DNA from: Clostridiales bacterium
GTDB lineage: Bacteria > Bacillota_A > Clostridia > Lachnospirales > Bianqueaceae
NCBI GenBank assembly: GCA_019423265.1
Contig: JAHZBS010000093.1
Coordinates: forward strand, 1 to 8,916
DNA: 8,916 nt
Direction: 5' to 3'
In this document: positions 1,087 through 6,108 of the stretch, piece after piece
How positions within the stretch are numbered: position 1 is the stretch's first letter
How the letters are laid out: each line of letters starts with the position of its first letter
Position numbers and translations under genes: made by a program
The notes under the pieces: generated by a model
The model's database searches: none
What the model saw: only the letters and a program-made list of their open reading frames with translations
Told to the model about the DNA's origin: nothing

Positions 1087-1115
1087 TTAGCATGAGTAAT
1101 ATTTAACCACACTAA
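1087..1115. promoter_or_regulatory. Possible MarR operator: tandem TTA-N7-TAA motifs
   Basis: Two 13-base motifs with TTA at one end and TAA at the other (1087-1099 and 1103-1115) are separated by 3 bases, giving a 16-base period. They cover the -10 element and the predicted transcription start of the MarR promoter, where a repressor would act. The inner 7 bases differ between copies and are not palindromic. Assignment to this MarR protein is inference. Confidence 0.4.
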
Positions 1116-1129
1116 ATTTTATTTGTCAA
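1101..1129 (-). promoter_or_regulatory. Promoter of the MarR-exporter operon
   Basis: On the minus strand a consensus TTGACA (1124-1129) is followed after 17 bases by TTAAAT (1101-1106, 4 of 6 matches to TATAAT). Transcription would start near 1094 and give a leader of about 50 bases to the ATG at 1041. Confidence 0.75.
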
Positions 1130-1156
1130 GCAGCAAACTGTAAGCCTTTTTATCAT

Positions 1157-1314
1157 TATAATCTCCATTCCGGAGCGTCAGCGACGGGGCGAAGAGAAAT
1201 TTGCGAAGGCGATTTCTCTTCTGCCATAAGAGCTATTTGTGGCGCTCCGGCACAAATAGCCGTGTGAAAAATAAGCTTTTCGAGCTTATTTTTCACACTA
1301 TACCCTGTTTTTTT
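1157..1314 (+). ncRNA. Candidate structured RNA or palindromic repeat element with three hairpins
   Basis: This non-coding block fills most of the gap between the divergent promoters. It starts with a perfect TATAAT (1157-1162) whose transcript would begin near 1169. The segment CCGGAGCG (1170-1177) follows. Hairpin 1 pairs 1191-1200 with 1212-1221 (10 bp), extendable by GGC/GCC across one bulged T. Hairpin 2 pairs 1232-1241 with 1251-1260 (10 bp, 9-base loop). Hairpin 3 pairs 1262-1277 with 1283-1298 (16 bp, 5-base loop). The loop of hairpin 2 contains CGCTCCGG (1243-1250), the exact complement of 1170-1177, so a pseudoknot is possible. Seven T residues occur at 1308-1314, 9 bases past hairpin 3. 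No good -35 matches the TATAAT, and hairpins look similar on both strands, so the strand and the RNA nature are uncertain. A dispersed mobile palindromic repeat is the main alternative. I do not recognise it as a known RNA family. Confidence 0.4.
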
Positions 1315-3315: not shown

Positions 3316-3349
3316 GGAGTTAGGGTATGTGCCCTAACTCCGCTTTTTT
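3316..3349. terminator. Bidirectional terminator shared by two converging genes
   Basis: The perfect 10-bp stem GGAGTTAGGG (3316-3325) / CCCTAACTCC (3332-3341) has a 6-base loop. On the plus strand it is followed by GC and six T (3344-3349), ending the ABC-F transcript just after its stop at 3311. On the minus strand five T follow (3310-3314). The TAG stop of the surface-protein gene (3334-3336) lies within the right arm, so the last codons of that gene are part of its own terminator. Confidence 0.85.
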
Positions 3350-6108
3350 GAATACAGGAGGGTTGCCGTGAGGCCGGAGCCAGCAAGGACAAGCAGGACA
3401 ATCCAGAGGATCCAATTGGCTGTGTCGCCTGTCTGCGGGTTGTTTACGTTCGTGTCGGATCCGGCATTGTCGCTTGGGTCCGAAGAATTGTTGTCCGGGG
3501 GATTCTCTGTCTCTGTCCCCAGCGCCGGGATTTCAATGGCCGCCTTTTTATAGCCGCACACGGTACATTCCTCATGTTTGGCCCCCGCATCTGTTGCGGT
3601 AGCCTCTTGATCAACCACCCATGTAAAGGTATGGGACGCCTTATCCGATATGGCATCACAGTCTTCGCATCCATGCCAGTGATCGGCATCGTCGCTGGCC
3701 CATTGGCTGCCGAAGGTGTGGGGAACGGCCGGGAGCTCCACCGCCGCCTTTTTATAGCCGCACACGGTGCATTCCTCGTGCCGGCTGCCCTTTTCTGTGC
3801 AGGTGGCTTCCCTGTCCACTACCCACGTAAAGGTGTGGGCTCCGACGCTCCCCCTCTCCTCCTCGCAGATCGTACACAGATGGTAGTGCTCGTTCTCATC
3901 GTATTTCCATTCTTCTCCAAACTCATGTCCTTCTATCGCCTCTTCCACCGTATAGGTTCCATCTGCGCGCCGATTTGTCGGAGTGAAATTGGGTGCGCAG
4001 TATTCTATGGGGACTTGGCTGCTGAAGGTGCCGCCAGAAACGCTGATCTTGGTATCCTCGCTGTACAGCGCATTCGTGCCTCCGTTAATCGCCCTGAAAT
4101 CACCGCCGGTCACATTGATCTGGATCTTATCGATATCAAGCGGATCGTTATTCTGGGGATTGTTCTCATATAGCGCGGTATACCCGGAGATACTGCCGCC
4201 CTGAATGTTGACCGTAATGGGCAGTTTGGTGGTATGCTGTGCCACCGCAATGCCTGCGCCATCGCTGGTGCTGCCGTTTCCATTGGGCGTAACCGACGAG
4301 GGGGAGCCCGTGCCCGTGATGACGCCGCCGGTGACATTCAATGTGCCGGCGCGCATCTCAATACCGGTTGCCCCGGTAATCGTGCCGCTCTCGATATTGA
4401 GAGTACCCTGCTGCGGATGATAGATAGCCTGACTCTCCGAGGTCAGCTCGGCATTTCCCTTAATCGTGATCTCGGTATTGTGACTCGTGCCGTTTCCGGA
4501 GACAGCGAAGCCTCTCGTGGCGATTTTACCGCCGTCAACCGTCGCTCTGCCAATGGCGTCCTCCGTTCCAAAGACCGCTAAGCCGACGCATCCGTAGGTG
4601 TCATACTCATTGCTGCCAAATAGACTGTCCTGTATCACAGTACCGGCGTTTACTATGATTTCACCTCCGTAGTTGCCCTGCAAGATGTAGTTATAGCTGT
4701 CCGTACTCTTATCAGGGCAATAGGATGTGATGGTCACATTGTCGGTGGAAAGCACGCCTGTTGCTTGAACCGCAAATGCCACCCGGCTGCCGGTGTTGAT
4801 ATCCTCCGTGCGTTTATCGATGACAGTACCGTTGGTAACCCTTGTGGTGCCGTCAATGACTGCCAAACCAAAGAACTTTCCGTCCGTTCCCACAAGATTC
4901 AGGGTATGGGTCTGAAGGTCCAGCGTAACGCTCCTGCGGATGATGACCGAACTGACATCCGCGTTCTTCAGCAGGTTGACTGTGGCGCCGGCTGGGGCCG
5001 CGCTGATAGCGGCTTCAACCGTCTTAAAGTACTGACCGTCAACCTCTGCCACATGGGCGTCCGTCTGGCTGGTCGCCTTATTTACCGTGACCGTATTACC
5101 GCTGCCCTCCGTCTCATACCCATCCGGGACAAATGGGCTTACATCGCTGGAATAGGTGCCGCCGGTGACTTTTACCGTGGCGCCTGAATAGCCCTTTTGG
5201 ACACTGGGCGCACCGTTGGCCGCCGTAAACGTGCCATCGGTAATGGTCAAAGTCCCCTTATTGTATGTATCATTGTCATAGCCGCACCAGACAGCCGCCT
5301 TGCCTTTATCGCCCTGGGTTTCAAAGGTACCGCCATTGATCGTTGCCACATTCCAGTTCATCAGCGCGTGTTGGGCTACATTGACAAAGCTGCCGCCATT
5401 GACGACTAAAATGGCATAGTCGTCATTCTTAATGGTATTCAGACCCCCGCTGAATGTACCGCCGTTGATGGTCAGCTTTGCCTCGGCGGTTGGCATAGGT
5501 TCACTGCTGCCGTTCACAGCGCTGGAATAATTTTGCCATCCATTCGCCACCAGGCTAGAGTATTGGCCATTGTTCTGCTCTACGGTGACACCTTCGTTGA
5601 TGGTCATCGTCCCAAAATTCTTAATGGTATACCACGAATTTCCGCCATTGTCTTCCGCGCTCTGACCATTTTCCTGCGAACGGGTATAGGTACAGCCGTT
5701 CAATGTGGCTGTCGCCCCTACGGTATTATACACAGCGCCTTTTCCGTGGCTCACATTGTCCACAGTGCCGGAACCGTTGATGGTCAGGGTTCCATTGTTT
5801 AGTATGGTGTGCGCTTTCACATTGTCCGAGGTGTCATTGGCCAGCGTGACGCCGGATGCCAGCTCCAGCGTAATGTCTGCACCTGAGGGGATCACCACGT
5901 TTTCATTGGTGGAGGCCACAACTTGAATGGTGGTCGCCACATTGCCAGCCGCCGTCACCGCCGACATTATCGTCTCATATTCCGAGCTTCCGATCTTTGC
6001 CACAGCCTCTCCATCGCCCTCTGCCAACGCCAGAGCCGGCGCCAGAGAAAGTACCATGGCAAATGTGAGAAATAGTGCCAGCAGTTTGCTCTGTCTCTCT
6101 CTTTTCAC
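3334..6108 (-). CDS. Secreted, sortase-anchored beta-helix surface protein with Cys/His repeats
   Basis: This 924-residue protein starts with GTG, with AAGGAGG 8 bases upstream. Residues 1-29 are a signal peptide (MKRERQSK, hydrophobic core, ALALA cut site). Residues 37-342 and 352-721 are two related halves. Each opens with an A.(V/I)....Y.T...A(V/I).AA..... (T/V)(I/V) pattern and closes with GGT(Y/F)SS.V plus a PDGY-like strand. In between are many (L/V)(T/V)(I/V)NGGTF-like turns, as in right-handed parallel beta-helix proteins. Residues 727-794 and 795-862 are two 68-residue repeats, each with H.F..W..D...H(Y/W)H.C..C and then HTFTWVVD..AT......HEECTVCGYKKAA. A linker rich in Asn, Asp and Ser leads to NPQTG (890-894), a hydrophobic span (about 899-918) and the tail YSKKRS, a wall-sorting signal of LPxTG type with Asn in the first position. 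It probably sits in the cell wall. Beta-helices of this kind often bind or cleave polysaccharide, but I see no recognisable catalytic motif. Role unknown; adhesion or glycan binding is only a guess. Confidence 0.92.
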   Translation of the reverse strand: MKRERQSKLLALFLTFAMVLSLAPALALAEGDGEAVAKIGSSEYETIMSAVTAAGNVATTIQVVASTNENVVIPSGADITLELASGVTLANDTSDNVKAHTILNNGTLTINGSGTVDNVSHGKGAVYNTVGATATLNGCTYTRSQENGQSAEDNGGNSWYTIKNFGTMTINEGVTVEQNNGQYSSLVANGWQNYSSAVNGSSEPMPTAEAKLTINGGTFSGGLNTIKNDDYAILVVNGGSFVNVAQHALMNWNVATINGGTFETQGDKGKAAVWCGYDNDTYNKGTLTITDGTFTAANGAPSVQKGYSGATVKVTGGTYSSDVSPFVPDGYETEGSGNTVTVNKATSQTDAHVAEVDGQYFKTVEAAISAAPAGATVNLLKNADVSSVIIRRSVTLDLQTHTLNLVGTDGKFFGLAVIDGTTRVTNGTVIDKRTEDINTGSRVAFAVQATGVLSTDNVTITSYCPDKSTDSYNYILQGNYGGEIIVNAGTVIQDSLFGSNEYDTYGCVGLAVFGTEDAIGRATVDGGKIATRGFAVSGNGTSHNTEITIKGNAELTSESQAIYHPQQGTLNIESGTITGATGIEMRAGTLNVTGGVITGTGSPSSVTPNGNGSTSDGAGIAVAQHTTKLPITVNIQGGSISGYTALYENNPQNNDPLDIDKIQINVTGGDFRAINGGTNALYSEDTKISVSGGTFSSQVPIEYCAPNFTPTNRRADGTYTVEEAIEGHEFGEEWKYDENEHYHLCTICEEERGSVGAHTFTWVVDREATCTEKGSRHEECTVCGYKKAAVELPAVPHTFGSQWASDDADHWHGCEDCDAISDKASHTFTWVVDQEATATDAGAKHEECTVCGYKKAAIEIPALGTETENPPDNNSSDPSDNAGSDTNVNNPQTGDTANWILWIVLLVLAGSGLTATLLYSKKRS
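3523..3930 (-). repeat. Two tandem 204-base units encoding 68-residue Cys/His repeats
   Basis: Unit 1 is 3930-3727 and unit 2 is 3726-3523, with an exact 204-base period. Conservation is uneven: the part encoding CTVCGYKKAA (3540-3576 against 3744-3780) is nearly identical, with the first 25 bases the same, while the middle has diverged. Unit 1 has an extra Cys (C770, in ATCTEKG) that is Ala (A838, in ATATDAG) in unit 2. Confidence 0.85.

Follow-up and report, generated by a model that had tools for sequence, protein, structure and literature searches.

The block at positions 1,157 to 1,314 of the window, meaning the whole 8,916-nucleotide stretch of Clostridiales DNA analyzed here, is very probably a minus-strand copy of a mobile element, non-autonomous, high in copy number and approximately 140-145 bp long, which inserts between a gene's Shine-Dalgarno (SD) sequence and its start codon and re-supplies the displaced SD. 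The informative strand of the block is the minus strand, where the conserved reading is SD, spacer, start codon. Read in that direction, members of the element family share one order: an SD-like resident flank, AGTGTGAAAAAT opening P1, P2 with a loop of 9-11 bases, P3 and a small P4, followed by a strand complementing the P2 loop, the motif AATGGAG, a spacer and a start codon.

The window copy and its fold

The three stems and the eight-base loop complement described in the first-pass annotation are present as claimed, both in an arm search and in folding against shuffled sequences. The eight-base match is exact and is contained in an 11-nt arm pair that is 91% complementary. The fold z-score of the block is -8.0 on the plus strand and -6.6 on the minus strand, and on either strand 0 of 200 dinucleotide shuffles fold as well.

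Table 1. Features of the element copy in the window and of the reading frames that touch it.
Feature	Position	Strand	Basis
Mobile unit, 140 bp	1160..1299	-	ends from homologous occupied/empty sites of the sister genomes (ParB-gene site)
R1 match, 142.3 bits	1154-1306	-	covariance model against window
P1 hairpin, arms 1283-1298 + 1262-1277 (perfect, 16 bp)	1262..1298	-	fold, arm search, covariation
P2 hairpin, arms 1251-1260 + 1232-1241 (perfect, 10 bp), 9-nt loop 1242-1250	1232..1260	-	fold, arm search, covariation
P3 hairpin, 1223-1225/1188-1190 + 1212-1221/1191-1200 (the latter perfect, 10 bp), one unpaired base between	1188..1225	-	fold, arm search, covariation
P4 small hairpin	1176..1186	-	fold prediction; alignment across family unreliable
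Pseudoknot strand 1 (P2 loop)	1243..1250	-	arm search, covariation
Pseudoknot strand 2, 3 bases upstream of SD	1170..1177	-	arm search, covariation
Element's own SD core GGAG, inside GGAATGGAG (1163-1171)	1163..1166	-	sequence; conserved in listed copies
ATG after element's SD	1154..1156	-	sequence
14-codon ORF MIKRLTVCCLTNKI after element, orphan or micro-ORF	1112..1156	-	ORF reading
Upstream ORF, GTG start inside P1, 46 codons, stop overlaps ATG (TAATG)	1156..1296	-	ORF reading

Across the family the outer part of P1 (GTGTGAAAAAT/ATTTTTCACAC) is almost invariant, and P3 preserves its pairing with a variable sequence. P4 has bases in common with a pseudoknot strand and so competes with the full pseudoknot. 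The window copy is complete, and its nearest counterpart among the collected copies, from genome G589, is 91.6% identical to it. Between 70 and 115 bases beyond the copy lies a MarR-like gene, whose start at 1041 was judged by its SD. We infer that the gene once led by the window copy has been lost, or that the 14-codon micro-ORF is its remnant.

Several further observations concern the surroundings of the copy. The sequence GGAATGGAGG serves as the SD of both neighboring genes, MarR-like and ABC-F (1047-1056 and 1371-1380), and a weak R1 match of 12.9 bits covers 1039-1075 on the minus strand. These SDs could be footprints of lost elements or could reflect a local SD preference. An ABC-F query returned 24 loci whose best segments are 21-50% identical, none of them usable for synteny. 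Farther along, at 3334-6108, a minus-strand ORF of 924 aa with a GTG start has only a weak NCBIfam match and, at E 0.001, no Pfam family.

The first-pass annotation had also read the plus strand, where TATAAT at 1157-1162 was taken as a promoter with a transcript start, possibly that of a free-standing small RNA. The hexamer is present and the plus strand folds strongly (z -8.0). However, this hexamer complements the spacer between SD and ATG, stands at that place in just 4 of 126 copies and is used by none of the sites reported in a promoter scan, and in other copies the transcripts would start out of start codons. A plus-strand RNA started in this way is almost certainly wrong for a block whose minus strand is conserved as SD, spacer and start codon, and we abandoned it once that SD/ATG pattern had emerged. 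The T-run said to follow the block exists (1308-1314) and falls outside the mobile unit. Attenuation, in turn, had been set aside on the ground that the block lies outside the leaders of both flanking genes, which is true of the window copy but misleading for the family, whose members are found inside 5' leaders.

Distribution and copy number

Relatives of the block are dispersed within one family-level group of gut bacteria, which may be the Lachnospiraceae. The nearest genome, G304, was located by its enolase, and DNA matches occur in 34 of 397 sampled genomes of its family, with two candidates scored per genome. A covariance model, R1, was built from 28 copies and applied to the best 150 candidates per genome. 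The resulting counts are lower bounds: at least 140 copies in G575, at least 84 in G589, at least 65 in G490, at least 35 in G778, at least 17 in G410 and at least 16 in G725. Many copies in varied settings, which had been proposed beforehand as the mark of a mobile repeat, are thus what the family search returned. Within genomes the median identity of the copies is 95.6% in G410, 94.9% in G725, 88.4% in G589 and 81.1% in G575, and their flanks are dissimilar.

Beyond this group matches become rare. In an even sample of the class, R1 matches 3 of 391 genomes, all three of them in the sample of G304's family; seven candidates were scored per genome under strict filters, so weak copies have possibly been missed. 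One genome, G212, has an R1 match in the class sample and no DNA match in the family search. A DNA search of 291 genomes from one class sample gave no match, nor did a search of plasmids with the element. Six pattern scans of viral contigs yielded 76 stretches with no recognizable copy; one of them, L029, proved on reading to lie inside a coding gene, and R1 matched none of the remaining 75.

Seven records matched in a distant DNA search with an E limit of 1. Three of them, from the gut and deposited as 'Bacteriophage sp.' (MT837007, MT836788 and MT838414), hold relatives of the element, and the other four matched through a 24-base stretch. In these three records the window pairing CCGGAGCG/CGCTCCGG becomes CCGCAGGCG/CGCCTGCGG, with both sides changed. 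We rejected a viral origin, since the same records carry chromosomal-looking genes (enolase and FeoB-like by reading, the enolase confirmed by a Pfam scan).

Rfam 15 has no gathering-score match in the window, nor over the element in 20 loci, and its sub-threshold matches to the window are poor, the best being HrrF at 30.4 of 77 bits. Approximately 1 kb from one element copy lies a TwoAYGGAY RNA (RF01731, 99.2 bits; L063:2588-2752).

Five shorter sequences (L252:11222-11332, L235:17540-17641, L248:5788-5887, L248:6907-7002 and L059:1958-2111) have the P1 end and the GGAATGGAG end without P3, and these shorter relatives form a wider superfamily of such leader elements. Two copies (L118:2658-2819 and L252:12726-12822) carry a terminator-like hairpin and a T-run in the place of P1. 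The 9-mer GGAATGGAG itself occurs 37 times in L235-L253, 380 kb of G778, against a median of 2 and a maximum of 10 for 200 permuted 9-mers. In 29 of these 37 cases an ORF of 60 or more codons begins at SD distance downstream of it, and many of the occurrences follow directly after a small hairpin.

Occupied and empty sites in sister genomes

The sister species G725 and G410 are approximately 96% identical at shared loci, and four sites are occupied in one of them and empty in the other. All four lie in the spacer between an SD and a start codon, and the empty loci have no R1 match. At the ParB gene the sequence of the empty allele is GAGGTGTACT-GATATG; in the occupied allele the unit AGTGTG...GGAATGGAGATT separates the two halves, with 0 or 1 base duplicated. 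At the RidA gene G725 is occupied and G410 empty, and ATGGAGGTT on both flanks could be a target duplication. At the genes for a GGDEF protein and for MntP the situation is reversed, G410 being occupied and G725 empty, with small further junction differences that include an extra AGTAT in the empty GGDEF allele. Given the RidA flanks and this AGTAT, the absence of a duplication is clean only at the ParB site. Compared allele by allele at the level of sequence, the four pairs show recent insertion between SD and start codon.

A fifth locus extends the comparison to the genus. At an aminotransferase-family gene of G575 the element is absent, among the matches listed, from 6 of the 8 genus relatives with an orthologue, and these six orthologue loci have no R1 match. 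The first-pass suggestion of a dispersed palindromic repeat was therefore right in kind, given the many copies, their varied settings and the occupied and empty sites.

Two candidate mobilizers were rejected, each being present in 1 of the 6 high- or medium-copy genomes searched: a Y1 transposase, as a weak partial match in genomes that may be incomplete, which speaks against an IS200/IS605-derived element, and an IS110-type recombinase, which speaks against one of the IS110/bridge-RNA kind. Separately, a 195-aa tyrosine recombinase nearest to XerA/FimB-like models (L146:313-900) is encoded immediately downstream of a copy and close to a flagellin-like ORF.

Position before the start codons of unrelated genes

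In the loci fetched, R1 gave 129 hits of at least 52 bits, and removal of three exact duplicates left 126 copies, which are not a random sample because the loci were fetched for their high score. An ATG ends 106 of the 126. In 101 the copy ends in an ATG, GTG or TTG that starts an ORF either 60 or more codons long or still open at the end of the locus, and 109 pass the downstream-ORF test when the start may lie a few bases away. The 17 copies that fail include the window copy; in three others (L165, L156 and L140) another element or its remnant follows, and in two (L124 and L134) the copy sits in a different repeat. Three G490 copies (L124:3519-3852, L130:1153-1488 and L134:1220-1502) are found in a separate repeat of approximately 300 bp with apparent terminal inverted repeats.

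The genes led by these copies share no evident function. A Pfam scan of 30 proteins encoded downstream (ten in G575, twenty in other genomes) matched 27 of them to 27 different leading families, among which are enolase, ParB, RidA, QueC, QueH, MgtE and ZnuA, and left 3 without a match. This spread argues against a regulon, and the functionally coherent set of downstream genes that a riboswitch would serve was not found among the 30 proteins. At the other end of the element, 105 of 117 copies have an SD-like motif ahead of their front start codon, compared with 559 of 3125 control windows.

The bias toward SD-ATG positions may reflect survivorship instead of targeting. A small repeat could insert broadly and persist at such positions only because its unit happens to end in GGAATGGAG, and the 17 failing copies, the three G490 copies inside a different repeat and the choice of copies by score, not at random, would all be compatible with this. 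Yet four of four reconstructed events fall in SD-ATG spacers, and most copies have an SD on their left flank. We consider broad insertion followed by loss a possible but rather unlikely account of the family.

Covariation of the stems and the pseudoknot

The pairing of P1-P3 was assessed in an alignment of 28 sequences (A1), in which 93.0% of the P1-P3 cells are paired and 23 of the 38 pairs show changes on both sides. On five measures of covariation, 0 of 500 shuffles reach any of the values observed. Since MAFFT misaligned the two pseudoknot classes, the pseudoknot was tested by matching the loop of each copy with its own 3' strand and with those of other copies. The mean longest Watson-Crick run is 6.70 for own strands and 4.46 for permuted ones, with a maximum of 5.04 in 2000 permutations (n=123 of 126), and a run of 5 or fewer is found in 33 of the 123 copies. 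Among 16 class-2 sequences, 97.7% of the pseudoknot cells are paired and 4 of 8 pairs changed on both sides; for one measure there, further pair types, 96 of 500 shuffles reach the observed value. As judged from the aligned copies, P1-P3 and the pseudoknot covary, and the compensatory changes anticipated in the first-pass annotation were found both in the stems and in the loop/5'-end pairing.

The P1-P3 cells contain 43 G.U and 56 A.C combinations, or approximately 37 and 40 without the weak last pair of P3. With G.U not above A.C, these counts do not point to selection on a sense RNA fold over a DNA fold, and the fold may be kept as DNA, as RNA or as both.

A strongly covarying pseudoknot three bases from an SD, together with the SD that 105 of 117 copies have ahead of their front start codon, invites comparison with a cis-regulatory RNA, riboswitch-like or a leader-peptide switch, in which the pseudoknot frees or hides the SD upon a signal or upon translation of the upstream ORF. 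Folding with ViennaRNA gives this comparison a divided answer. With the pseudoknot strands reserved, SD openness in the CUCC-type class goes up from 0.30 to 0.54 (n=42), and in the window copy from 0.01 to 0.56. In the other class, however, the same operation lowers it from 0.48 to 0.31 (n=52), and overall openness moves only from 0.40 to 0.41 (n=94 of 126). A family-wide SD switch was rejected as unsupported, the two classes shifting in opposite ways.

Further evidence against regulation in cis comes from the downstream genes, which are unrelated, from insertion sites that differ between sister species and from the missing sense-RNA wobble bias. The upstream ORF usually keeps its start in the family and not its length, which ranges from 2 to more than 500 codons and in some copies runs into the gene region. 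Such a spread indicates that the peptide is not conserved, and a conserved upstream-ORF peptide was rejected on this ground, yet nine predicted proteins resemble the window's version. Taken together, we regard a dedicated cis-regulatory RNA as improbable and favor a mobile element.

A model for insertion and tolerance

As a mobile element, the unit acts as DNA, inserting behind the SDs of unrelated genes and ahead of their start codons, as the four sites show. Its downstream end brings its own SD to a few bases before the start codon, so that the gene keeps an SD, a feature visible in the copies themselves, and this SD probably serves the gene from then on. The resident SD comes to face a GTG, ATG or TTG at the element front, from which it would drive a short upstream ORF. 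The resulting leader RNA is predicted to fold into P1, P2 and P3, with a loop-to-3'-end pseudoknot ending 3 bases before the SD; covariation establishes the pairing, and we infer that it forms as RNA. Genes probably tolerate the insertion because their SD is re-supplied, and this would account for the high copy number. A target duplication of few or no bases and the lack of terminal inverted repeats would together suggest a conservative process or a single-strand process that recognizes hairpins.

A stronger form of the model holds that the element integrates specifically into translation-initiation regions, perhaps led there by its own folded nucleic acid and by the GGAG common to target and element end. 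The product would be a two-start leader, in which the resident SD serves the element GTG and the element SD serves the gene, coupling expression to ribosome traffic. We regard this directed form as doubtful.

Small mobile repeats usually sit where they are least harmful. This family lands in a highly sensitive site of the gene and brings along the very signal that it displaces. If targeting is real, the element has an insertion specificity for ribosome-binding sites that is worth understanding and perhaps using; if survivorship accounts for the pattern, it shows that a parasite carrying an SD can thereby turn harmless. As one genome has at least 140 such leaders, the family is also relevant to the way common gut bacteria set translation.

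Comparison with known systems

No description of this element family was found among the openly licensed papers of PMC (CC0, CC BY and CC BY-SA), which is weak evidence of absence. Translational riboswitches such as preQ1-II and SAM-II have a pseudoknot that adjoins the SD of the downstream gene, as the element does. Unlike them, the element is mobile, occurs in high copy, precedes unrelated genes and has no Rfam match. Elements derived from IS200/IS605 and REP sequences have subterminal hairpins, lack terminal inverted repeats and insert without target duplication. The element likewise has subterminal hairpins and no terminal inverted repeats, but its first hairpin begins at the second base and leaves no room upstream for a guide sequence of the IS200/IS605 kind.

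MITEs are short, non-coding, folded and high-copy sequences that are presumably mobilized in trans (PMC3049150). The element resembles them in being short, non-coding, folded, high-copy and mobile, presumably in trans as well. It differs in having no terminal inverted repeats, none being found between AGTGTGAAAAAT and GGAATGGAGATT and the arm search giving no pair at 1160-1171/1288-1299, and in showing no clear target duplication at the ParB site. Without terminal inverted repeats and with an ambiguous target duplication, it is not classed as a strict MITE.

The pneumococcal BOX, RUP and SPRITE sequences are interspersed repeats, small, strongly folded and high in copy number, that are regarded as non-autonomous mobile elements; they can contain small ORFs and be transcribed together with genes (PMC3049150). 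They are over-represented between convergent genes; SPRITE, for example, has 15 upstream and 15 convergent copies (Table 1 of PMC3049150). An excess between convergent genes was not found among the 126 score-selected copies of the present family, 101 of which lead an ORF. The element family agrees with BOX, RUP and SPRITE in being small, high-copy, strongly folded and interspersed, and differs in lying mostly directly before start codons, with an SD and a covarying pseudoknot. Small folded interspersed repeats such as BOX, RUP and SPRITE are the nearest described kind.
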